This document shows positions 34,053 through 55,941 of a stretch of DNA of 64,000 nucleotides, one piece after another. Under the pieces are notes generated by a model, which saw only the letters and a list, made by a program, of their open reading frames with translations, searched no databases and had not been told where the DNA came from. Origin of the DNA: Tahibacter harae (GTDB taxonomy: Bacteria > Pseudomonadota > Gammaproteobacteria > Xanthomonadales > Rhodanobacteraceae); contig NZ_JANFQO010000015.1 in assembly GCF_024437735.1 (NCBI RefSeq), positions 1 to 64,000 of the forward strand, given 5' to 3'. A program made the position numbers and the translations under genes. Each line of letters opens with the position of its first letter. The stretch's first letter is position 1.

Positions 34053-34547
34053 ATGGCAAAGCCCAAGGACAAGAAAGACAAGGACGGCGGCGGCACGATC
34101 GCCCTGAACAAGCGCGCCCGCTACGACTACCACATCGACGACCGCTACGAAGCCGGCCTGGTGCTGCAGGGCTGGGAGGTCAAGAGCATCCGTGCCGGCA
34201 GGGTCAATTTCGGCGATGCCTATGCCCTGATCAAGGCCGGCGAACTCTACCTGTTCGGCGCCCAGATCACCCCGCTGATCCAGGCCTCCACCCACGTCGT
34301 CGCCGACGACCGCCGCACCCGCAAACTGCTGCTGCACCGCGAGCAGATCGACAAGCTGATCGGCGCAGTGGAACGCAAGGGCTACACCCTGATCCCGACC
34401 GCGCTGTACTGGAAGAACAACCGGGTCAAGGTGGAAGTGGGCCTGGCCCGCGGCAAGCAGGAGCACGACAAGCGCGCGACCGAAAAGGACCGGGACTGGA
34501 ACCGGGAGAAGCAGCGGACGATGCGGGCGCATAACCGCGACGCCTGA
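34053..34547 (+). CDS. smpB: SsrA-binding protein SmpB
   Basis: A 164-residue SmpB, the partner that carries tmRNA to stalled ribosomes. Core blocks are [43 protein letters not shown], and the C-terminal [25 protein letters not shown] helix that reads the mRNA channel. The start at 34053 (AKPKDKKDK) gives the family length; the open frame extends 30 codons upstream without similarity. Its RNA partner ssrA is 1.6 kb away on the opposite strand, with the jet remnant between. Confidence 0.97.
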
Positions 34548-34687
34548 CAGGCAGTGCGGATCCGGGCCGGCGCGCGAACGCATCCGCGCACGAAATCCTG
34601 CACGGCATGCTTTCGCCTCGCGCTTGCTGCTGGCACAGATCGGCAAGGATCCGCAGGGTGCGCAGCCCAGGCGGTTCTCTCACCTCG

Positions 34688-35890
34688 TCACGGCAATCCC
34701 CGCAGCGTCTCGTTCAATCAGCCGAAACCGACACGCTCCTGCTCCAGCCTCAGCCTGGACTGAAAACGATCGAAGCGCAGATCGTCATACAGCGCCACCT
34801 CATCCGGCGTCTGGCGCAGCAGGTCGTGATGCCGGGACTCGGGCTCTTCGCTCCAGTGCAGGCGATGAGCGCGAAGCATCTCCTGGTCCATCAGCAACGA
34901 CGCCGCCTGGGGAAAGTGGGCGCGAAACTGGTCGAGAATCGCGAAACCATGCGTGTCGATGTCGCCCCAGTAGTGCAGTTGCGCCACTGTGCGTTGCGCA
35001 TGTTCTCCGGCTTCCAGCCAGTCGTGATGTACCCGACGGGTACGGGGTTCGGGATTCAGTGCGGCGACGGCAGGCAGTGCAAGAACTTGGTCGAGGCGCT
35101 CAGAGAGTTGTTCCTGCCGCCGGCTGGACATGAGGAAGTCCCAGAAGGCGCGAAAACTGCGCCCCTGGTCCGAATCGCCGATGGCATCACGCTCGCCCAT
35201 GATCTCGTCGAGCAGCGCGCTCTTGCCACCTTCCCACAACGCAATCCGCTCACGCACCTTGCGGTCGAGCTGGCGAAAGTTGTGCTCCACCTCGCGGAAG
35301 TCAGCCAGCAGCTCGCGCGCCAGTTGCTGGAACTGCTGAAAGCGGTCCTTGACTGCCGTGTCGTCCAGCAGCGGCACTTCGCCCGCCATGGTGCGGGAAA
35401 TTTCGGCATCGAGCTCCGCGCGCTTCCTGCGCAGTTCCTCGACTCGTTTGACGGGATCGGCTTCGGTGCCGGCACTGATCTGTTCCAGCAGCGCGAAAAG
35501 CGTCAAGAGACGCGATTCGGTGCCAACAAACGGCCGCTCGGTCAGCGAAACCAGCCAGGCAATAGCTTTCTCGGCAGCAGGAGTCAGATCGAACTGCGCT
35601 TCATCGGTGCCCGGCTTGTAGAATTTCCGCAGCCAGCCCTTGTCAGATGCGCACCAGCCGCCCAGATACTCCGACGCACCTTTGGGATAAGCCTCCTCTC
35701 CCAGCTGTTCGCGCAGCGCGAACAGCTCGTCTTCCAAGGCTTCTGAGAGATCCGCTTCATTCATCACGCGCACATTCGGCGCAACGAACTTCCGATACAG
35801 GAAGCTGGCCACCAGCGGCGCATGCGGCGAAGCCAGTAGCCGCCAGGCGGGATGACGCTCGCGCAAGGCGGCAAGGGTTGCGTGGTTCAT
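34688..35890 (-). pseudogene. jetA-jetD deletion fusion, remnant of a Wadjet operon
   Basis: The 390-residue ORF (stop at 34718) joins two unrelated families. Residues 1-305 fit DUF3375/JetA, the kleisin-like subunit: LRERHPAWRLLASPHAPLVASFLYR at the start, GRSFRAFWDFLMS near 245 and HHDWLEAGEHAQRTVAQL at 288-305. From residue 306 the chain reads HYWGDIDTHGFAILDQF, SLLMDQEMLRAHRLHW and LYDDLRF, the C-terminal end of JetD, the Toprim nuclease. The join is at about 34975. JetB, JetC (the SMC ATPase), the JetA C-terminus and the JetD front with its Toprim glutamate are missing, so plasmid defence cannot work. The stop after ERVGFG is TGA where a Trp codon is expected; the frame then continues LNETLRGLP to 34688. 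No clear ribosome site precedes the ATG. It lies beside ssrA. Confidence 0.85.
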
Positions 35891-36092
35891 GGCGGAAGAG
35901 CCTGGCTTTCAGTAGCGTCTCAAATGCGGCAGCCTCGGGAAAAAACCACTGAACGACGCGCACCCGCAAGCTACCACGACAGCCATGATGAGGGAGCCCC
36001 GTCCCTCCTCCCCGGCAGCCTGCGGACGTCCCGCACATCATTGCGCCAAAAGCACGATCAATGCCGTGTGCAGCAGCGCTTGCGCCAAGAAA

Positions 36093-36117
36093 AAGGCCCG
36101 GAGGTCATCCGGGCCTT
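36093..36117 (-). terminator. Intrinsic terminator of ssrA
   Basis: On the minus strand AAGGCCCGGA pairs perfectly with TCCGGGCCTT through a five-base loop and is followed by TTTCTT. It lies seven bases beyond the 3' CCA end of tmRNA and is a textbook Rho-independent terminator. Confidence 0.9.
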
Positions 36118-36123
36118 GGCAAA

Positions 36124-36476
36124 TGGTGGAGGTGGCGGGAATTGAACCCGCGTCCGAAGGCGTTTGACGCCAGGTACTACATGCTTAGCTCACTGTTGGG
36201 TCTCGTCCGCCGGCAGCACAGTGCGCAAGGCGCACCGTCGGACCAGCCTGTAAGTTTTAGCCGGGCACCGACAGGCGGCGGGTCCCAGCGATCCTGTGAT
36301 AATGACCCTACATCCACGAGCACAGGCACAAGTGGGTTCGGGGCTAGGCCTTAAGCGGCCAGAGCGTAGACGTCGTCGTTGGCGTCTGAATTTTTGCCGC
36401 TGGATTAACGAGGAAAGCTGCCCCCTCGGCATGCACCCAACTATCTCACTACCCCCGTCGAAGCCGTGACACCCCC
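36124..36476 (-). ncRNA. ssrA: Transfer-messenger RNA (tmRNA)
   Basis: The 353-base RNA begins GGGGGTGTCACGGCTTCGACG and ends with a T-arm (GGGAATTGAACCCGCG region on the complement) and CCTCCACCA. The first seven bases GGGGGTG pair with CACCTCC before ACCA to form the acceptor stem (one G-U pair). tmRNA with SmpB frees stalled ribosomes and tags the broken protein. A tag reading frame is present at 36351-36383, and an intrinsic terminator follows. The gene end is a frequent integration site for mobile islands; no repeated copy of its 3' end was found on either side here. Confidence 0.97.
36351..36383 (-). CDS. tmRNA proteolysis tag reading frame
   Basis: GCC AAC GAC GAC GTC TAC GCT CTG GCC GCT TAA inside ssrA encodes the degradation tag ANDDVYALAA. 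The C-terminal ALAA is the usual signal for ClpXP. The resume codon is the GCC after TTCAGAC. Confidence 0.9.
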   Translation of the reverse strand, partial: ANDDVYALAA

Positions 36477-37122
36477 GGGGAAAGGCGATGCTAGCACGAT
36501 GCCAGCGTCGATGGCGATGTGATGACAGACTGGCGGGATTTCAAGGCCGGCTGCTGCGACCGGAAAGGCGTTCGCGCCCGGGCGGCCGCAGCGGCGCGTT
36601 CGCGCCGGACCGGTTCATGATGCCCGCAACGGCTGGCGGAGAGCCCGGGGCCAGGCCCGCAGAGGCGACATTCCCCGACGTATCGCATTCGATCCCCCGG
36701 GGCTCCCGGCGGTCGAGACCATGAGACCCATGGAATCTCGCTCCGCATCCAGTTCCGACGCCGCCGCCACCGGCAGCACCGAACACACCCGGTTTCCCTG
36801 CCAGACCCAACCATCACCAGACCCGGGTTGCCATTCACACTGGCCGGGAAACTCCCTTTGTGCATTTCCACTGGGAGAAATCCGCTTCGAGCGACACCTG
36901 TACCTGTGAACTGGCTGGAAACCCGATCCGCGCGGAAAATTCCCGCGCTACTTCGGTAACCAGCACGACAAGGCTTTTCCGGAGCACGGCATCTGGATCG
37001 CTGTGGACGCTATCGGTAGCCCGATCCAGCCCATCTGGTCACGCATTGCCGAATACGCGCCCGCCGACCGGCGCGCCCATCCACCCGCTACGACCGCAGC
37101 GCAGGAACACAACGGAGGCCGC
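36477..37122. other. Non-coding or decayed region upstream of ssrA
   Basis: About 645 bases without an intact gene. A stretch from 36910 to 37080 reads GWKPDPRGKFPRYFGN then QHDKAFPEHGIWIAVDAIG in frame with the downstream lipoprotein but has no start codon and follows a stop at 36907, so it may be the tail of a decayed coding sequence that I cannot name. The ssrA promoter should lie just right of 36476. Confidence 0.35.
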
Positions 37123-37995
37123 ATGAAACGCCTACTCGGCAATATCTGTCTGTTGGCCTTGCTGTTGAGCGGCTGCAAGACAGATACCTCCGCATGTGAA
37201 GGAACGCCGACGCAGAAGCCGCCTGCAGCAGCGCCCGCACCATCCAGCCCTTCCCCGCCTGCCTCAGGCGCTGCCGAGTACACACTGCGCTGGATGACCT
37301 CCAGCACCAGCCTGGAACAGGCCGACCGCGAGCTGAAAGAAGTGCTGGGCCGCCTGCAGCACAGCGCCGCGCCGCTGGCCGAGCTGCCCAAGGCCAGGAA
37401 GTTCACCGTCAGCTACTACGCTGTCGCCGAGAACGACTGGCCCGACAAGTACAAGGCCAGCTTGCGCCAGCGGCTGCAGCAAAAAGATGGCGAGGTCGAA
37501 ACCGAACTCACCTACAAGGTACGCGGCCCGGCGCCGCTGCCGGCCGCCTTGCCGGAAGTCCGCGCCTGCAGTTGCAACAAGATCGGGACGGAGCAGGAAA
37601 CCGATATCGCCCTGGCGCTGAATCCGGAAAACAATGTGCGCAACGCCGGGATCAGCTGCAGTGTGGATCCGCGGAAAATTTCTCCACTGCCCGCGGCATT
37701 CGCGCCCACCTCGGCGGCACGGCCCTGTGCAATCTCGATGACACGCTACAAGCTGGACGGGCCGACGGCCGCCGCCGGCGCAAAGGAAGATCTGAAAATC
37801 GAATACTGGACATTCAAACCCAGGTCCGCGGAAACGCGCGCACTCATCGAAGTCTCGTGGAAAGCGAGCATCGCCGCCGCGGACGAACAGGCTTTCCGCA
37901 CCGCCGTCGCACCGCTACAGGAAAAATTGGCAGCGCTGCCGATTCCGGGCAAGGAACAGATGGCATTGTCCTGCGATGCGGACTGGGCGCCCTGA
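37123..37995 (+). CDS. Lipoprotein of unknown function
   Basis: A 290-residue lipoprotein: KRLLGNICLLALLLSGCKTD is a clear signal with the acylated Cys in LLSGC. A Pro/Ser-rich linker (residues 35-55) follows, then a two-part soluble region with the related stretches YTLRWMTSSTSLEQADRELKEVLGRLQ and IEVSWKASIAAADEQAFRTAVAPLQEKLA, each beta strand plus helix, suggesting a duplicated fold. GGAGG six bases upstream fixes the start at 37123. No family was recognised. It stands between the tmRNA region and the second vgrG cassette. Confidence 0.75.
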   Translation: MKRLLGNICLLALLLSGCKTDTSACEGTPTQKPPAAAPAPSSPSPPASGAAEYTLRWMTSSTSLEQADRELKEVLGRLQHSAAPLAELPKARKFTVSYYAVAENDWPDKYKASLRQRLQQKDGEVETELTYKVRGPAPLPAALPEVRACSCNKIGTEQETDIALALNPENNVRNAGISCSVDPRKISPLPAAFAPTSAARPCAISMTRYKLDGPTAAAGAKEDLKIEYWTFKPRSAETRALIEVSWKASIAAADEQAFRTAVAPLQEKLAALPIPGKEQMALSCDADWAP

Positions 37996-38060
37996 CTTGG
38001 GCGCGATACGCGGCGCTGCAGCAGGACCGCGGCAGCCGCATCGGCACCCTCAGCGCTTTT

Positions 38061-38771
38061 TCATGATCCCGGGTACCGCAGCCGGTCGCCGGCGCTGACC
38101 GGCTGCAGCACCAGTTCGTCCAGCCTGAGGCATTCGATATCCACGTAGTACGGGAATGCCTGCCGCTGCGCATTGATCTGCCGCTCTTCGCGTTGCGCCG
38201 CCGCCCCGGTGCCGCAGATCGCAACGAAACAGCGATGGGTCTGGCCGAAAGCCTCCTCGACATGACTGACGACCAGCACCTTGCTCTGCGATGGCAGAAT
38301 TTCGCGACAACGCAAGTCAGAAACGGTGCGCAGGTCCGCATCGACATCGATCCCGGGCCGATACGCCTGTTCCGCCCAGCGGTCGGCGATTTCCCCGTTG
38401 CGCAAGGCGGCGCTGTAATCGCGCTTCGCCTGTTCGGCCAGTTCGAGCTGGCGGAATACGCCCAGACAAAGAGCGCCGTCGGAATACGCGCTGATAGTGC
38501 GCCAGAGCAGATGCACGGCGGAATTATCCGGCAAATCCGTCCAGGCCCGCCAGGACAACCTGGCATTACCCTGCCCGCAAGCGTCGGCTAAAGATCCGCA
38601 GCGAATGCGGAACTGGCTGAGACGGAAGCAGGTCGACAACCGCCGCCGTCCACCCGCAACCAGGCGCTCCGCCACGGATTGCGCGCAGATGCACGCCGGC
38701 CGGCCGCGGCGAACCGCGTGCTGCAGCCAGATCGGCCTTCCATGCCTGCAAACAAATTGCCGTGCGCGCAA
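38061..38771 (-). CDS. Hypothetical protein, start uncertain
   Basis: The reading frame looks coding in its last 170 residues (RAWTDLPDNSAVHLLWRTISAYSDGALCLGVFRQLELAEQ, then DYSAALRNGEIADRWAEQAY and FPYYVDIECLRLDELVLQPVSAGDRLRYPG), with conserved-looking Cys residues (DLRCREILP, CFVAICGTG). The first 60 residues are Arg-rich and not convincing, so the true start may lie downstream or the 5' end may be damaged. No family is recognised. It converges on the lipoprotein gene. Confidence 0.4.
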   Translation of the reverse strand: MRARQFVCRHGRPIWLQHAVRRGRPACICAQSVAERLVAGGRRRLSTCFRLSQFRIRCGSLADACGQGNARLSWRAWTDLPDNSAVHLLWRTISAYSDGALCLGVFRQLELAEQAKRDYSAALRNGEIADRWAEQAYRPGIDVDADLRTVSDLRCREILPSQSKVLVVSHVEEAFGQTHRCFVAICGTGAAAQREERQINAQRQAFPYYVDIECLRLDELVLQPVSAGDRLRYPGS

Positions 38772-39153
38772 CGAAAATCACAGGCAGTGATCCCGCCTAT
38801 CCCCAAATCGTGAAATCGCGAAAAACAGGATCAGACGAATTTGCACAATGCCGGCACATGAGCGTCTGCGCCGGCTTCGAACAGCTGCACGTACGCCGCG
38901 GAAACCCAAGGGCCTTCCGGTCGCACAGCGGAAAGCACACTCCATCCCAAGTCTCACGCAAAGGGACGCAAGGCAGGACACGAATACGTTCCGTCCGATC
39001 GCAGCAGGCAAGCTGTGAAAAAAATCCCGGAACGACGGGATTTCCATTTGCTAACCTGCGATTTGAGGAATGCAGCGGGGATATCGGGCAGGCGCCGCTA
39101 CGCAGCGCCACGAACCCGGTGAAGCCACACTCGCCGTTTCGAAGGGAATCGTC
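38772..39153. promoter_or_regulatory. Upstream region of the second vgrG cassette
   Basis: No gene was recognised. The region has a hairpin at 39022 and lower GC than its neighbours. The last bases before vgrG2 (TCGAAGGGAATCGTC) resemble the leader of vgrG1 (TCGAATGGACTCGCC), so the duplication that made the two copies may include their ribosome sites. Confidence 0.45.
39022..39043 (-). terminator. Intrinsic terminator-like hairpin
   Basis: AAATCCCG and CGGGATTT form a perfect eight-base stem with a six-base loop. A run of seven A precedes it on the plus strand, so it would terminate leftward transcription. It lies 110 bases before the vgrG2 start. Confidence 0.6.
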
Positions 39154-41715
39154 ATGAATCGTGCGTTGAATGTCACCACCCCGCTGGGTCCGGAAGTGCT
39201 GCGCTTCGACAGCCTGCAGGGGCGCGAAGCACTGTCGCAGTTGTTCGACTTCCAGCTGACGCTGAAGAGCGAGGAAAAAGGCCTTTCCGCCGACGACCTG
39301 CTCGGCCGGCCGATCACGGTCGACCTGGAACTCGAAGGCGGCGCGCGACGGCATCTCAACGGCCAGTGCATACACTTCCGCTCCGCCGGCCGCCGCGGCA
39401 AGCAGCACCTGTATGCCGCGCAGCTGCGGCCCTGGCTGTGGTACGCCACGCGACGCAGCGACTACCGCATCTTCCAGGGCCAGACCACACCGGAGATCGT
39501 CAGGCAGGTGCTGGCCATGTATCCGTTTCCGACCAAGTGGCTGCTGTCGCGCAGCTACCGCAAATGGAACTACTGCGTGCAGTATCGCGAAACCGATGCG
39601 AATTTCGTGCAGCGGCTGCTCGAGCACGAAGGCATCTGGTTCTGGTTCGAGCATTCGGCCGGCGAGCACACGCTGGTGCTGACCGACGACATCGGCCTGG
39701 CCAGCCCCTACCCGGGCTACGCGAAGATTCCGTTCTATCCGCACGACACCACCGTGCCGGACAAGGATCACCTGCACGGCTGGGCCGCCGCCGGCACGGT
39801 GCAAAGCGGCAAGTATTTCGCCCGCGACTACAACTTCGTCATGCCCGCCGCGGATCTCACCACCCAGCGCGTGCGCCCCGCCGGCCATCCACATGCGAGC
39901 TACGACATTTTCGACTATCCCGGCAGCTATCCCACGCTGGGCGAAGGCGATCCTTACGCGCGCGTGCGCCTGGAGGAATTGCAGGCCAGCCACAAGCGCA
40001 GCCACGGCCAGGGCCGCGCACGCGGTCTCGCGCCGGGTCGGCTGTTCACGCTGGAGAAGCACGTCGTCGGCGACTACAACAAGGAATACCTGGTCGTCGG
40101 CGCCGAATACGATTTCAGCGACAACGACTACGACGGCAACGAGGACAGTACCGAACACCGCCTGACGATTGCCGCGGAAGTGCATCCGACCGACCAGCCG
40201 TACCGGCCGGAACGGCGCACACCCAAGCCGCATACGATGGGTCCGGAATCGGCGGTGGTGACGGGGCCTGCAGGCCAGGAGATCTACACCAACGAACACG
40301 GCCAGGTGAAGGTGCAATTTCACTGGGACCGTTACGGCAAGAAGGATGAAAATTCCTCGTGCTGGATCCGCGTATCGCATCCCTGGGCCGGCACGGGCTT
40401 CGGCGGCGTGCATATCCCGCGCATCGGGCAAGAGGTTCTCGTCGATCATCTGAACGGCGATCCGGACCAGCCCATCATCGTCGGCCGCGTCTACAACACG
40501 AACAACCCGCATCCCTGGGGCCTGCCGGCCAACGCCACGCAATCGGGCTTCCTGTCGCGCAGTTCCATGGGCGGCCATTCGCAGAATGCCAATGCCTTCC
40601 GCTTCGAGGACAAGAAAGGCGAGGAACAGGTCTGGCTGCACGCCGAGAAGAACCAGGATATCGAAGTCGAAAACGACGAGACGCACTGGGTCGGCCACGA
40701 CCGCGCCAAGACCATCGACCACGATGAAACCGTGCATGTGAAGCACGACCGCACGGAAACCGTCGACCACAACGAAACCATCACGGTACACAACGACCGC
40801 ACCGAGACCGTGGACGGCTTCGAGACCATCACCATTCACAAGGACCGTAACGAGACGGTGGATGGCCACGAAACCATCACCATCCACAAGAATCGGACCG
40901 GGACGGTCGATCAGAACGAAACGCTGACCGTGCACCAGAATCGCACGCGCAGCGTCGACGGCAACGAAACGGTGACGGTGCGCCGCAACCGCAGCAAGAA
41001 AGTGAACAAGAGCGAGAACGACAAGATCGGCAAGAACTGGGCGATCAAGGTCGGCCGCCTCAAGACCGAGACCATAGGCCTGGCCAATATCGAATCGGTG
41101 GGCCTGGCGCGCATGAGCACTATCGGCATGGCCTACAGCCTGAATGTGGGGCTGATGATGAATACCGCGGTCGGCAACAAGAGCAACACCTTCGTCGGCA
41201 GCGAGGAAAGCACCCGCATCGGCAAGAAAAGCACGCTGGATGTGGGCAAGCAGCTGCAAACCACGGTCGGCGAAAGGCGGGAGGACAAGACGGGAAAAGT
41301 CCACCGCATCGAAGTCGGCGAGCATTTCGAACTGGTCTGCGGCGGCTCAAAAATAGTGCTCAAGGCCGACGGCACCATCTACCTCGAAGGCAAGATGATC
41401 CATCTGCTGGGCAGCGCGGAGGTGAACGCCGACGGCGGTGACGTCTACATCAACTGCGGCAAGGCGCAATCCGCGCCGGCAGCACCGCCACCGGAGGAAG
41501 AAAAGGAAGCCGCGGCGGCGCCAGCCGAAGCCGCCGCCGGCGACGGCGTGATGGGTGCGCTGGGCAATCTGATGGACAAGGCCGGCAGCGTGCTCGGCGT
41601 GGTGCGGCAGCTCGACGGTATCGCGCAGATGGCCGGCGGCGCGGGCTTTCTCGGCGGCGCAGGCCAGGCGCTGGGGGCGGTACAGACCGTGGCCGGCATG
41701 GTCGGCAAGCAATGA
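39154..41715 (+). CDS. vgrG: VgrG type VI secretion spike protein (copy 2)
   Basis: An 853-residue VgrG. Its head (1-500) is almost the same as copy 1 at 4408-6951, with DNA identity unbroken over about 80 bases around 40461-40540. The shaft then has about 26 octapeptide repeats (HDRTETVD, GHETITIH, KNRTGTVD, RNRSKKVN, LANIESVG, ERREDKTG) against 22 in copy 1, followed by LVCGGSKIVLKADGTIYLEGK (DUF2345-like) and a helical Ala/Gly tail. The start at 39154 follows GAAGGG; an in-frame ATG at 39070 would add an unrelated leader. It heads a seven-gene cassette in which each downstream gene is close or overlapping. Confidence 0.95.
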   Translation: MNRALNVTTPLGPEVLRFDSLQGREALSQLFDFQLTLKSEEKGLSADDLLGRPITVDLELEGGARRHLNGQCIHFRSAGRRGKQHLYAAQLRPWLWYATRRSDYRIFQGQTTPEIVRQVLAMYPFPTKWLLSRSYRKWNYCVQYRETDANFVQRLLEHEGIWFWFEHSAGEHTLVLTDDIGLASPYPGYAKIPFYPHDTTVPDKDHLHGWAAAGTVQSGKYFARDYNFVMPAADLTTQRVRPAGHPHASYDIFDYPGSYPTLGEGDPYARVRLEELQASHKRSHGQGRARGLAPGRLFTLEKHVVGDYNKEYLVVGAEYDFSDNDYDGNEDSTEHRLTIAAEVHPTDQPYRPERRTPKPHTMGPESAVVTGPAGQEIYTNEHGQVKVQFHWDRYGKKDENSSCWIRVSHPWAGTGFGGVHIPRIGQEVLVDHLNGDPDQPIIVGRVYNTNNPHPWGLPANATQSGFLSRSSMGGHSQNANAFRFEDKKGEEQVWLHAEKNQDIEVENDETHWVGHDRAKTIDHDETVHVKHDRTETVDHNETITVHNDRTETVDGFETITIHKDRNETVDGHETITIHKNRTGTVDQNETLTVHQNRTRSVDGNETVTVRRNRSKKVNKSENDKIGKNWAIKVGRLKTETIGLANIESVGLARMSTIGMAYSLNVGLMMNTAVGNKSNTFVGSEESTRIGKKSTLDVGKQLQTTVGERREDKTGKVHRIEVGEHFELVCGGSKIVLKADGTIYLEGKMIHLLGSAEVNADGGDVYINCGKAQSAPAAPPPEEEKEAAAAPAEAAAGDGVMGALGNLMDKAGSVLGVVRQLDGIAQMAGGAGFLGGAGQALGAVQTVAGMVGKQ

Positions 41716-41774
41716 ACGGCCGGTTTTCAACGGCGGCGGCGATCGCTCGCAGCCAATTCGTCAAGGAATGATGC

Positions 41775-42122
41775 ATGCCTGCACCTGCGGCAAGAATCGG
41801 CGATCCCCATGTGCGGCCCGGCACTGGCGGTCCGGTTACCGGATCGGCCAAGCGCGTCCATATCGAAGGCCGCCTCGCCGCCCGGCTGGGCGACACGGCC
41901 AGCTGCGGCAGCGGCCAGGACGCCATCCTGGAAGGCGAGCCCAGCGTACTGATCGAAAACCAGCCGGCCGCCCGTGTAGGCGATGCGCACGGCTGCGGTG
42001 GCGTGATCCAGGATGGCGCACGCCGCACCTTCATCGGCGAAACCCGCGATGCCGAGTGCCTGCAGGCCGCGGCTGAACAGGGGGCGCTGGTCGTGGTGCC
42101 GGAATCCTCCATCGAAGAATGA
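41775..42122 (+). CDS. PAAR-repeat spike-tip protein
   Basis: A 115-residue PAAR protein that would sharpen the tip of VgrG2. It opens PAPAARIGDPHVRPGTGGPVTGSAKRVHIEGRLAARLGDTASCG and continues VLIENQPAARVGDAHGCGGV, the paired PAAR-type repeats with His and Cys zinc ligands. The C-terminal 25 residues are a short extension, not a toxin. It lies 59 bases after vgrG2 and overlaps the adaptor gene by ATGA. Confidence 0.92.
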   Translation: MPAPAARIGDPHVRPGTGGPVTGSAKRVHIEGRLAARLGDTASCGSGQDAILEGEPSVLIENQPAARVGDAHGCGGVIQDGARRTFIGETRDAECLQAAAEQGALVVVPESSIEE

Positions 42123-42763
42123 GCCCGCATTTCACGCAGCGGATATTGCCGACGCTGTGCTCGGCCGATATCCCGCTCTACGCCATCGCCGATGCGGCCC
42201 AGCCGGCCAATGTGCTGGCATGGCTGCGGCAGCGCCCTATTCCCTCAAGCTCGCTCTACGGCGGGATACGCCAGCGCACCCTGGGTCACCTGGCACCGTA
42301 CCTGCTGACTTATCTGCCCGAGCACGCCGTGCACTGGCAGGAACTGGCCACCCGCTTCTGGTCGCGCAGCTGCCTTTATTTCGTTTCCGGCGACGCCGAG
42401 CCCGAAGCCATGCGGCTGCATCTGAAGAAATCCCTGCAGGTGATGCTGCCGGACAAGCGCATCGGACTGCTGCGCTACTACGATCCGCGCGCCTGGCTGC
42501 AGTTCTGCCGCATCGCCACGCAGGCGCAGATGGATACCTTCTTCGGTGACTGCGTGCGCGCCGTGCACTGCGAGATCGACGGCGGCCGCCGGATGATGAC
42601 GGTCGAGATCGGCGCCGCGACAGCAGGCAACCGGCTGCTGGGCCTGCCGCGCGCGGTGGATATCTATATGCATGAGCTGATCGCGCCTGTCCCAGACAAT
42701 CTGCGCAGACAAGACCAGCACGGCTCCGATCCACACGTCCCTCTGCGGGAATCCCTATGCTGA
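42119..42763 (+). CDS. DUF4123-family T6SS adaptor
   Basis: A 214-residue protein of the DUF4123 (Tap/TEC) family, chaperones that load a cognate effector on VgrG. The fold is suggested by LYAIADAAQPANVLAWLRQR at the N-terminus, LLTYLPEHAVHWQELATRFWSRSCLYFVS and FRYYDPR-like LLRYYDPRAWLQFCRIATQAQMDTFFG. It starts within the PAAR stop codon and overlaps the next gene by seven bases. In known systems the adaptor sits directly upstream of its effector; here one small gene intervenes. Confidence 0.88.
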   Translation: MSPHFTQRILPTLCSADIPLYAIADAAQPANVLAWLRQRPIPSSSLYGGIRQRTLGHLAPYLLTYLPEHAVHWQELATRFWSRSCLYFVSGDAEPEAMRLHLKKSLQVMLPDKRIGLLRYYDPRAWLQFCRIATQAQMDTFFGDCVRAVHCEIDGGRRMMTVEIGAATAGNRLLGLPRAVDIYMHELIAPVPDNLRRQDQHGSDPHVPLRESLC

Positions 42764-43140
42764 GTCTCGACAAAAGCCAGCTGGCCGACCTGCGCCGGCT
42801 GGACGAGGAAGACTATGTGCAGCGCATGACGCCGCACTGGTTTTCCTATATCGAAGCATTCCCGTTGCCTGGGCCTGGTCTCTCGCGCGAACAGACCGAA
42901 CAGCTTGCACGCGAAGCCTGGCGCGTCGCCGACCAGCACGGTTTCAGCGACGACGGCGACCGCATCCGCCTCACCTTCCATCTGTGGCGCGCGGCGCGGA
43001 TAGGCCAGCCGCGCAGTTATTTGCAGGGGCTGGCATGTTTCCTCGTCACCTGGGTGCAGACCAGGCCTGCCTTTGCGCACGACTGGATAGACCGGCGCCT
43101 GTATCTGGCCGAATGCGCGTTCGAGGAAGCAGGCCGATGA
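42757..43140 (+). CDS. Small T6SS-cassette protein of unknown function
   Basis: A 127-residue helical protein (LSLDKSQLADLRRLDEEDYVQRMTPHWFSYIEAF, then QTEQLAREAWRVADQHGF and LTFHLWRAARIGQPRSYLQGLACFLVTW). No signal peptide or catalytic motif. Both ends overlap neighbours (seven and four bases), so it is made with the adaptor and effector and probably helps effector handling. Similar small genes occur after DUF4123 adaptors, as far as I recall. Confidence 0.65.
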   Translation: MLSLDKSQLADLRRLDEEDYVQRMTPHWFSYIEAFPLPGPGLSREQTEQLAREAWRVADQHGFSDDGDRIRLTFHLWRAARIGQPRSYLQGLACFLVTWVQTRPAFAHDWIDRRLYLAECAFEEAGR

Positions 43141-44306
43141 GCGATCCGCAGACACCGCTGCTACCGATGCCGTGGAACACGCCGCCGGCCGCGCCGTCGC
43201 CGCTGCTGCCGCAGCAAACGAAAGGCCCGATACCGCCGCCGGCAACGGCACCAGCGCCGGCCACGCCGGCAGGCCCGGAAGACAAGCTCACCCCCGCCGA
43301 CCGCGACATCCTGGCCGACTACCGCGCCAAGTACGCCGAGCGCGAAGCCCGCTACGCGAAATGCCAGGAACAGGCCCAGGCCGACCAGGCCAGGCGCGAC
43401 GAGGAACAGGCGCAGATCGATGCCGACTGGAATGACAAGAGCAAGAAGCATCCGAAGAAAAAGCCCAAGCCCAAGACTTCCGTGCGCGAATGCAAACTGG
43501 AAGAGGGGCGGATCGCCTGCGTGCCAGCGGACAAGCCCCCCAGGGGCACGATGAGCGAAGACCTAACCAAGATCATCAACAAGGAGGCGGGCACTTCTGT
43601 CGATCTGGCAAAGATCAGCCAGTGGGAAGGCGGCGTGCATCTGAATGCCTATCAGCCTTGGTTTCCCGATCTGACGCGCAATGCCGACGGCAGCTACAGT
43701 GCGGCGCTGTCCAAAGACGGCACCTACCTGCAAGGCCCCATTGTCAAGGGAACCAAATACCCGAACGCCTCAGGTGTCACCATCGCCAAGGGCGTAGACC
43801 TGGGGCCGCAAAACAAAGATCCGTTCCTGAGCGAGCTGGTCGAGCTGAACAAGCAGGCGAAAATTCTCACGCCCGAGGAACTCGAACAGCTCAAGACAAA
43901 GCTGGGGCCTTATTTCGGCCTGCGCAGAGCCGCAGCCTGTGCCTACCTGCGCGCAAATCCGCTGTCCATCACGCAGAAAGAGGCGGATCTGCTGAACTAT
44001 CGTGCGGCAAAAGAGGCGATGAAGCAGGCGACGACTATCTACAAGAAGGAGACCGGCAACGACCTAAGCGCTTTGTCGCCGGAAGCACAGACGGTGATCC
44101 TCAGCCGCGCCTATCAGTCCGGCCGAATCCCCGACAAAGCGGTCCTCGACAATCTTGCGGCCGGCAACTATGCAACAGCCTCGACATCCTTCGACCCTAA
44201 GAGAGAACGGCCCTTTCTGGCCGCGCTGGGCAACGCACCACCACCTGCGTCAACGGCACCTGCAACGCCCTCCGCTGGCACGGCTACGCCACCTCCGAAA
44301 CCCTGA
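43137..44306 (+). CDS. T6SS effector with pesticin-like muramidase domain
   Basis: A 389-residue candidate lysozyme effector. Residues 1-48 are Pro-rich, 50-120 a Lys/Glu-rich helix, and 135-365 a phage-lysozyme-like domain. SQWEGGVHLNAYQP places a Glu (about 164) where T4 lysozyme and pesticin have the catalytic acid, and SGVTIAKGVDLG (about 212-223) supplies the Thr and Asp, as in the pesticin C-terminal domain. A helical ...LRRAAACAYLRANPLSITQKEADLL region follows. No signal peptide, so export depends on T6SS. It should cut peptidoglycan glycans in a rival's periplasm. The two genes that follow are exported proteins, fitting immunity. The ATG at 43137 is ATGA-coupled. Confidence 0.8.
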   Translation: MSDPQTPLLPMPWNTPPAAPSPLLPQQTKGPIPPPATAPAPATPAGPEDKLTPADRDILADYRAKYAEREARYAKCQEQAQADQARRDEEQAQIDADWNDKSKKHPKKKPKPKTSVRECKLEEGRIACVPADKPPRGTMSEDLTKIINKEAGTSVDLAKISQWEGGVHLNAYQPWFPDLTRNADGSYSAALSKDGTYLQGPIVKGTKYPNASGVTIAKGVDLGPQNKDPFLSELVELNKQAKILTPEELEQLKTKLGPYFGLRRAAACAYLRANPLSITQKEADLLNYRAAKEAMKQATTIYKKETGNDLSALSPEAQTVILSRAYQSGRIPDKAVLDNLAAGNYATASTSFDPKRERPFLAALGNAPPPASTAPATPSAGTATPPPKP

Positions 44307-53601: not shown

Positions 53602-55941
53602 TCACTCGCTCCAGTAGTGCCGGCGCCGCTGCCGGCAAAACTCGATCGGTTCGGGCGGCGCGGCCGGCGTGAAGCGCCAGCGCAGGCAGCCGGAATCGGC
53701 GGTATTCCACAAAGGAACGGCGCGTTCGCGATAGCGCGCGACGACTTCCGCATGCGGGTGGCCGAAGCGGCTGCGATAAGCGGCGGAGACCAGGGCGGCC
53801 TGTATCGGCAGCGCATCCAGCAGCGCGTTGCTGGATGAAGTCCTGCTGCCGTGGTGCGGCACCAGCACTACCAGCGGCTGCGCGCCCGCGGCCGCGGCGA
53901 TGCGCGCCTCGTCGGCCGCGACCATGTCGCCGCTGAGCAGCAGCCGGGCCTGGCCGCTCTGCACCAGCAGCACGCAGGAACTGGCATTGCCGCGGCCGCC
54001 GCCCGCGGGTGGCGGGTGCAGCGCGCGGAAGTCGACGCCGTCCCATTGCCAGGCGAGACCTGATTCGCAGGCCTGGGCCGTATCCAGGCCGGGCACCGGT
54101 TCGCCGGCGAAGATGCGCCGCGGGTGCAGGTTGCGGATCACGCCGGCCGCGCCGCCGGCGTGGTCGCCGTCGGCATGGCTGATGACCAGCGTATCGAGCC
54201 GGCGCACGCCCAGGGCCTGCACGGCCGGCGCGACCACGCTTTCGCCCTGGTCGAATCCCGAGGGGAAGCGCGAACCCGTGTCGTACAGCAGCGCATGCCG
54301 TTCGGTGCGCAGCAGCACCGCCAGGCCCTGACCGACATCGATCACACTGAGATCGAAGCCGCCCCGGACCGGACGCGCCGCCGGCGGCCACAGCAGCGGC
54401 AGCAACAGCAGCGCAGCTACGCCCCGCAACGGCACGCCGCGCGGCAGCAGCAGCCAGAGTACGCCCAGACCAGCCAGCCCATAGGCGGCGGCAGTGGCCT
54501 CGGCGAAATACCACTGCGCCAGCGGCCAGGTGGACAGCCATTCCAGCAGGCGCCACTGCCCTTCCAGCGCAAAAGCCGCAATGTCCAGAATGAGCGAACC
54601 GGCTGCCGGCAGCAGCGCGGCAGTCAGTACGCCGGCCAGCGTCAGCGGCACGACCACAAAGCTGATCCAGGGCACGGCAACCAGGTTGGCCAGCGGCCCG
54701 ACCAGGGAGCTGTGGCCGAAGAACCACAGGCTCAGCGGCAGCAATCCCAGGCTCATCGCCACCTGGGCCGGCACCAGTTCGCGCCACCAGGCCAGCCCGG
54801 GACGGTTGCCGAAGCTGTAGACCAGCAGCGCCACGCCGGCGAAGGACAGCCAGAACCCCGCGGCCAGCAGCGCCAGCGGGTCGGCCAGCAGCAGCGCAGC
54901 CAGCGCCAAAGCCAGCGCCTGGCGCAGCGGCAGCTCCCGGCGCAGAGTGCGCGCGAGCATGACCACGGCCAGCATCAGCAAGGTGCGAACGGTGGCGATG
55001 CCGAAGCCGGCCAGCGCCGCATAGGCCGTGGCACAGCCCAGCGCCAGCGGCGCCTCCAGCACGGCGGCCGGCCAGCGCAGCGCCAGCTGCGGCCGGCAGC
55101 GCCACAGCCGGCGCGCGCACCAGGCGCCGGCCAGGGCCAGCATGCCGACATGGAACCCCGAAATCGCGATCAGATGCCCTACCCCGGTCGCGCGCAGCAC
55201 CTGCCATTCGGCCGCGTCCAGTCCGCGCTGATCGCCAACCGCGAGCGCGCGCAGCAGGTGCGCGACTGGCGTGTCGCCGAACTCGGCGGCGATGGCGTCG
55301 GCGATGCGTTCCCGCCGCGCGGCGACGCAGCCGGGCGCGGGCGCCAGCTCGCGGTTGGCGCCGTCCTCGCGCACATAGCCGACCGCGACGAGGCCCAGCT
55401 GCAGGGCCTGGCGCTCGCTGTCGAAACCGCCGGGATTGCTCAGGCCGCGCGGGCGCTTCAGGCGCACGCGCAGCTGCCAGCTGGCGCAGGGCCGCAGCCG
55501 CGGCGGCGTGCCGTACCAGGACAGCCGCACGCGGCCGCGCAATGGCAGCGCCTCGCCGTTGCGGCTGGCGCTGTGCAGGACCAGATCGAAGCGGGTCGCA
55601 TCGGCGCGGCGGTCCGGCAGGTCGAGGATGCGTCCGCGCAGTTCCAGTTCCACGCCTTCCAGCACCGGCGGCAACCGTTCGCGCAGGGCCAGTTCGGCGC
55701 GCAGGCCGCTGTTGCAGGCACCGAGCAGGAACAAGGCCGGCAGGCGCGCCAGCGGCCAGCGCCAGAGCAGCGATGCCAGCAGGCCGCCGGCCAGCAGCCA
55801 GCTCAGCGGCGGCAACCGCGGCAGCGCCTGCAGCGAGACGCTGCCGGCGAGCAGCGCCAGCACCGCGCCGGGCGCCAGCGGATGGCGCGCGATCCGGCGC
55901 AGCAGCGCGGCGAATTGGCCGATGGCAATGACTGCCGGCAT
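53602..55941 (-). CDS. comEC: ComEC/Rec2 DNA-uptake channel protein
   Basis: A 779-residue inner-membrane protein for single-strand DNA entry during natural transformation. An OB-like DUF4131 region lies in the first 200 residues, the competence domain with many helices at about 215-490 (VGHLIAISGFHVGMLALAG is diagnostic), and a metallo-beta-lactamase-like domain at about 520-760 with DVGQGLAVLLRT, the metal motif SHADGDHAGG, and LVVLVPHHGSRTSS. All three domains are present, so it should be intact. It lies between the LysR gene and the lol/sdh block, as comEC often lies near lol genes in this order. Confidence 0.95.
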   Translation of the reverse strand: MPAVIAIGQFAALLRRIARHPLAPGAVLALLAGSVSLQALPRLPPLSWLLAGGLLASLLWRWPLARLPALFLLGACNSGLRAELALRERLPPVLEGVELELRGRILDLPDRRADATRFDLVLHSASRNGEALPLRGRVRLSWYGTPPRLRPCASWQLRVRLKRPRGLSNPGGFDSERQALQLGLVAVGYVREDGANRELAPAPGCVAARRERIADAIAAEFGDTPVAHLLRALAVGDQRGLDAAEWQVLRATGVGHLIAISGFHVGMLALAGAWCARRLWRCRPQLALRWPAAVLEAPLALGCATAYAALAGFGIATVRTLLMLAVVMLARTLRRELPLRQALALALAALLLADPLALLAAGFWLSFAGVALLVYSFGNRPGLAWWRELVPAQVAMSLGLLPLSLWFFGHSSLVGPLANLVAVPWISFVVVPLTLAGVLTAALLPAAGSLILDIAAFALEGQWRLLEWLSTWPLAQWYFAEATAAAYGLAGLGVLWLLLPRGVPLRGVAALLLLPLLWPPAARPVRGGFDLSVIDVGQGLAVLLRTERHALLYDTGSRFPSGFDQGESVVAPAVQALGVRRLDTLVISHADGDHAGGAAGVIRNLHPRRIFAGEPVPGLDTAQACESGLAWQWDGVDFRALHPPPAGGGRGNASSCVLLVQSGQARLLLSGDMVAADEARIAAAAGAQPLVVLVPHHGSRTSSSNALLDALPIQAALVSAAYRSRFGHPHAEVVARYRERAVPLWNTADSGCLRWRFTPAAPPEPIEFCRQRRRHYWSE

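Follow-up and report, generated by a model that had tools for sequence, protein, structure and literature searches.

A 390-codon open reading frame lying beside the tmRNA gene ssrA in Tahibacter harae is very probably a scar left by the loss of a type I Wadjet operon, with the front of jetA running in frame into the end of jetD. The frame was examined within the first 64,000 nucleotides of contig NZ_JANFQO010000015.1, a stretch referred to from this point on as the window. Residues of intact JetA and JetD are numbered according to G007, a genome of the same genus that retains the complete operon. The features of the window to which the argument refers are these.

34718..35890, minus strand: fused jetA'-'jetD open reading frame, 390 aa, ATG start; very probably a type I Wadjet operon remnant
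34976..35890, minus strand: jetA part, codons 1-305; jetA residues 306-490 (G007) are missing
34721..34975, minus strand: jetD part, the last 85 codons, from H-YWGDIDTHG, equivalent to G007 JetD from residue 298 on
34976..34978, minus strand: seam Leu codon, readable either as jetA codon 305 or as the jetD codon preceding HYWGD
34688..34720, minus strand: stop codon (34718-34720), then nine JetD-tail-like codons up to a second stop
36124..36476, minus strand: ssrA (tmRNA, tag ANDDVYALAA)
34053..34547, plus strand: smpB, on the opposite strand to ssrA
34559..34581, no strand: left-hand arms of imperfect short inverted repeats, close to the breakpoint adjoining smpB
36568..36616, no strand: the corresponding right-hand arms, 5' of ssrA

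The first-pass annotation, made from the DNA sequence, had described a JetA-like region (residues 1-305) and a JetD-like region (306-390) in one open reading frame, and had proposed HMM searches of the first against DUF3375 and of the second against JetD. Pfam and PADLOC models agree in recovering both. In Pfam, DUF3375 matches residues 9-305 (E-value 3.6e-111) across profile positions 2-297 of 474, where the match stops, leaving the frame without a full-length JetA kleisin, and JetD_C matches residues 300-389 (E-value 9.7e-30, profile positions 81-172 of 179); both matches are far over the cut-offs. The corresponding PADLOC models are JetA1, at residues 1-305 (E-value 1.7e-149), and JetD1, at residues 303-389 (E-value 2.7e-37), names that we read as type I Wadjet. 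The scores of both halves rule out chance similarity. With either collection, the changeover from the JetA to the JetD profile falls at residues 300-305, and the seam interrupts both Pfam domains.

G007 shows how the two halves are arranged when the operon is whole. In that genome, the four genes jetA, jetB, jetC and jetD begin 4.3 kb beyond ssrA, on its strand, and behind them comes a gene that we call McrB-like from reading its sequence. The operon sequence is that of JAEUPP010000039.1, a Rhodanobacteraceae MAG with an identical jetA, and its locus is L053 in the comparisons that follow. Window positions 34976-35891 match the start of the G007 jetA at 81.8% DNA identity, and positions 34719-34978 match the end of its jetD at 74.4%. 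Since these alignments share 3 bases, the seam is placed at 34975/34976, which agrees with the position of about 34975, between VAQL and HYWGDIDTHG, first read from the translation. In G007 and most close relatives, the context of the seam is ..VAQL|S in jetA and ..L|(H/Y)YWGDIDT in jetD, and the G007 stretch between the two seam points is approximately 5.5 kb. The halves of the fusion therefore correspond, in order and direction, to the opposite ends of a single intact operon. Because that operon lies downstream of ssrA and points the same way, a single internal deletion of approximately 5.5 kb would explain the fusion. Such a deletion, running from jetA into jetD, had been put forward in the first-pass annotation, and the order and direction of the genes in G007 support it; the single step and its mechanism we infer. 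It had also been suggested that relatives with a full jetABCD should be sought between smpB and ssrA. One relative does have the complete operon, to which the seam could be aligned, but it sits beyond ssrA rather than between the two genes.

The genes that would have lain between the halves return no match elsewhere in the T. harae genome. When that genome was searched with the fused protein, the sole match was the fused protein itself; the G007 JetD found only the fused tail, and the G007 JetC found nothing. As a control, the JetC query run over the genus does match G007 (its source), G001 (68% identity) and, weakly, G005, while T. harae again gives no match. The G007 JetB likewise has no match in the T. 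harae genome, the positive control having been run for JetC only. When the window plus the adjoining 16 kb was searched directly, neither JetB nor JetC gave a match at E < 1. These results uphold the proposed loss of jetB, jetC and most of jetD. The fused gene shares with type I Wadjet (JetABCD) its JetA (DUF3375) and JetD (JetD_C) sequence, the gene order and direction seen in G007, and a place beside the tmRNA gene. It differs in that no jetB or jetC was found and that JetA and JetD are truncated and fused; of the four-gene jetA-jetB-jetC-jetD operon that marks a functional system, only jetA and jetD pieces are present.

The unequal divergence of the two halves could instead point to two sources, with a resident and an incoming Wadjet operon recombining rather than one operon suffering a deletion. 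We consider this unlikely. Compared with 48 intact relatives (a set in which L007 and L053 stand for the same record), the fused gene has an identity of 0.859 (85.9%) in the JetA half and 0.699 (69.9%) in the JetD half, and this gap of 0.160 is larger than that of 44 of the 48 relatives. The intact operons behave in the same manner, however, with pairwise identities among the 48 averaging 0.88 for JetA and 0.77 for the end of JetD. Mean JetD identity is below mean JetA identity in every one of them, and four have a gap exceeding 0.160. A short neutral phase would widen the gap further, and one deletion is the simpler path.

Beyond the absence of partners, what remains of JetD lacks a residue needed for catalysis. 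JetD contains a Toprim domain, as described in extracts of PMC10586767. In the solved JetD(E248A) chain, position 248 aligns with Glu259 of the G007 JetD (in the sequence TENE), where YWGD starts at 299. The JetD part of the fusion opens with the residue preceding YWGD, downstream of this Glu, and the fusion therefore lacks it. By a positional test, Glu-Asn occurs 28-50 residues before YWGD in all 79 full-length JetD sequences, and a Toprim nuclease with its catalytic glutamate is not what the fused frame encodes. The C-terminus is shortened as well. Counted from the start of LEQE, the frame has nine residues left, while the shortest tail among the 78 JetD sequences measured (78 of 79 could be parsed) is 16. 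In 67 of the 79 relatives, Trp stands approximately where the stop codon falls, and the nine codons past the stop are still JetD-tail-like. Judged by its sequence, the remnant should not form a Wadjet complex or work as Wadjet, and the fused gene is probably dead.

The join itself was found in no other genome. Beyond the single genome that represents the species in the comparison, no match covering residues 1-390 occurs among 233 genomes of the family, 398 of the order and 369 of the class (overlapping samples). Some match to the fused protein is returned by 45 of the 233, 97 of the 398 and 47 of the 369, T. harae itself included, and in the other genomes these matches are jetA pieces, jetD pieces or both. 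One genome from the class sample, G743, has a match of 28% identity whose query range (4-350) spans the seam position, but its 499-aa frame is of ordinary JetA length, and it also has a separate weak JetD-like match. The same fusion in many distant genomes, the observation on which the first-pass annotation would have given up the reading as a scar, was not encountered in these samples. Among mobile elements, the seam, written as a degenerate DNA pattern, was not found in viral contigs, phage records returned no match, and in none of the ten plasmid records with a match was 80% of the query covered at a single place.

A fused gene that is a working protein kept by selection, for example a DNA-binding or regulatory protein made of the JetA N-terminal half and the JetD tail, is very unlikely, although several observations would suit it. 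Its start is intact, and no stop interrupts the 390 codons. In a codon model of 21 sequences chosen from the set of 48 relatives, omega on its own terminal branch is 0.080, against 0.055 overall, which is far under 1 and not significantly over background (rank 4 of 21, 2dlnL 2.54). As this relaxation is not significant, continued constraint on the fused frame is possible. AlphaFold2 is confident in the N-terminal region, where ten-residue pLDDT means are 77-94 over residues 1-110, except for 54 at residues 11-20. Mean pLDDT of the whole fusion is 54, and values are 27-47 in the JetD-derived part; the latter are not counted against the fold, since the alignment of the short JetD fragments was probably wrong (their identity to the first row was 26-34%, versus 50-78% by tblastn). 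A low omega is also expected under recent loss. In a two-phase codon model of both parts, the best neutral phase is 0.04-0.06 substitutions per codon, a value of approximately 0.12 is just within 1.92 lnL, and a neutral phase of zero length costs no more than 0.9 lnL; taken by itself, the JetD part is looser, with 0.3 still within 0.8. The codon models would allow at most a short neutral phase, and if the gene has been neutral since the deletion, the loss looks recent. The first-pass annotation had called the loss recent, which fits the short neutral phase, although the same model is also compatible with continued constraint. Conserved sites, defined as those kept in at least 95% of the 48 relatives, have been departed from in 4 of 201 cases in the JetA part, a rate above 40 of the 48 relatives, and in 3 of 39 in the JetD part, a rate above 47 of the 48. 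The latter rate speaks against a working protein, as do a seam that cuts both domains, the missing catalytic Glu, the missing SMC and KITE partners, the shortened C-terminus and the lack of a second genome with the fusion among the 233, 398 and 369 sampled. That the fused protein has been domesticated, its JetA N-terminal half and JetD Toprim-fold piece taking up a new role near ssrA as a DNA-binding protein, is highly improbable. An assembly artefact, in which an intact operon gave a chimeric or collapsed join, is scarcely credible even for a 79-contig draft, since the contig that has the join in its interior is 163 kb long, neither JetC nor JetB finds a match anywhere in the assembly (99.5% complete), and 3 bases fitting both sides of the seam are little to mislead an assembler.

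We therefore return to the loss of a Wadjet operon, which may be pictured as follows. In an ancestor, jetA-jetB-jetC-jetD would have stood downstream of ssrA. A single internal deletion of approximately 5.5 kb (the size being taken from G007), perhaps at a very short repeat of 3 bases fitting both sides, would have joined jetA codon 305 to approximately codon 298 of jetD (G007 numbering), the reading frame being kept across the join by chance. The segment lost would comprise jetB and jetC together with the C-terminal third of JetA and the greater part of JetD. The remaining product would have no SMC motor, no KITE subunit and no C-terminal part of the kleisin, and its Toprim would be without the catalytic glutamate. 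A stop codon would have removed the last JetD residues, either earlier than the deletion or later, and the ssrA block would at some point have been inverted relative to smpB. The scar is a clean remnant from an ordinary kind of gene loss and not a new system. Microhomology at the seam is plausible. CTG stands at the jetD position in 34 of 48 close relatives and at the jetA position in 21 of 48. At this junction, jetA and jetD share 7-8 bases in 7 of 79 intact operons and none in 37 of 79, with a mean chance probability of 0.55; given the 37 operons with zero shared bases, a seam repeat is offered as a possibility.

The surroundings of the scar have themselves been rearranged. As the first-pass annotation had it, the fused frame lies directly downstream of ssrA, which is on the same strand and 233 bp ahead of the start codon. 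In T. harae, smpB and ssrA are on opposite strands, but they share a strand in all six other genomes of the genus in which both were found, with gaps of approximately 70 bp to 7.4 kb (G006 is outside this count, as its smpB gave no match and its tmRNA match was under the cut-off). In G003, the matches to the smpB side of the window (ending at 34560) and to the ssrA side (ending at 36558) are seven bases apart. This spacing indicates that the block of ssrA and scar is inverted in T. harae, and because of the inversion the scar sits between smpB and ssrA. Short repeats like those at the ends of the block also occur elsewhere in this GC-rich stretch. As for the attachment-site repeats that would mark a tmRNA-associated genomic island, within 34450-36750 the sole repeat touching the 3' end of ssrA is a pair of 14 bases at 86%. 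The stretch to the right of ssrA (36559-39069), among the loci compared, matched only that of T. harae itself. A gene at 53605-55941, which we take to be ComEC-like, is on another contig than smpB in G002, G004 and G007, and 87 kb and 311 kb away from it in G005 and G001, respectively; with its placement so scattered in the genus, this gene does not settle the far side of the inversion.

A tmRNA gene on the same strand, no more than 5 kb before jetA, accompanies 7 of the best 80 of 440 loci (L053, that is G007, L057, L071, L078, L102, L104 and L112), a count in which many of the other loci hold less than 5 kb before jetA. Similar short open reading frames occur close downstream of ssrA (L140:8884-9417, L138:7572-8114 and L143:12315-12632), with ..ARPSGVFVRFWVPLDLRARVGS.. 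in G005 and G007 and a variant in G004. The G005 copy has a weak DUF6538 match (E-value 1.4e-4, under the Pfam cut-off) and the G007 copy none; they are possible integrase remnants. Also near ssrA, window positions 39070-44306 hold a likely type VI secretion cluster, consisting of a VgrG-like gene (39070-41715), one with DUF4123 (42119-42763) and another whose product carries a Pesticin/lysozyme-like domain (42984-44306). Extracts of PMC10250203 describe the Pseudomonas aeruginosa defence hotspot cDHS2 as flanked by ssrA, with Druantia and Wadjet making up approximately 25% of its systems. The T. harae site is alike in having Wadjet sequence beside ssrA, although cDHS2 belongs to another genus and, in those extracts, is described by its occupied sites rather than by a scar.

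Incomplete operons of other kinds occur among the loci compared, which are the best 80 of 440 relatives. All four genes are present at approximately 80% coverage or more in 72 of these 80, contig ends truncate three (L036, L038 and L076), and five are incomplete (L058, L072, L095, L100 and L106). In a Methylobacter MAG (L106:12174-13576), jetC residue 365 is joined to jetD residue 286. This too is an internal deletion of the same operon, with a jetD end point approximately 12 residues from that of the T. harae seam (298), but it runs from jetC to jetD and leaves the pieces in different frames. In Aquimonas voraii (L072:12173-13891), jetC is without residues approximately 270-810, some 540 residues from its middle, with the frame kept, and jetA, jetB and jetD are at 94% coverage or more. 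This is again an internal deletion of the operon, differing from the T. harae scar in having both end points inside jetC. From the SMC layout, we presume the missing middle to be the coiled coil and hinge, and the locus is possibly a 'mini-SMC' or an early stage of decay. L058 keeps only residues 1-322 of jetA. Taken with the scar, the deletions in L072 and L106 and the incomplete L058, L095 and L100, among the best 80 of 440, suggest that decay of Wadjet by internal deletion recurs. New here are the inversion of ssrA and scar relative to smpB and the other internal deletions in Methylobacter and Aquimonas.

Loss of Wadjet has been seen in the laboratory. Extracts of PMC12287153 report a Clostridium cellulovorans mutant in which a spontaneous 23-kb deletion took jetABCD, and in which a separate cas deletion is flanked by 5-bp direct repeats; a clean deletion of jetABCD in C. 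cellulovorans raised transconjugation by approximately five orders of magnitude. There, to go by the same extracts, the whole operon was lost from a laboratory mutant, whereas the T. harae case is an internal deletion that leaves a fused frame and is known from sequence. Titles and abstract openings of the literature on Wadjet fusions, pseudogenes and truncated remnants describe no such scar. The T. harae scar is a base-exact case of the natural loss of a chromosomal anti-plasmid system. If the species has strains with and without it, comparing them could show, inside a single species, how the loss of Wadjet affects plasmid load.
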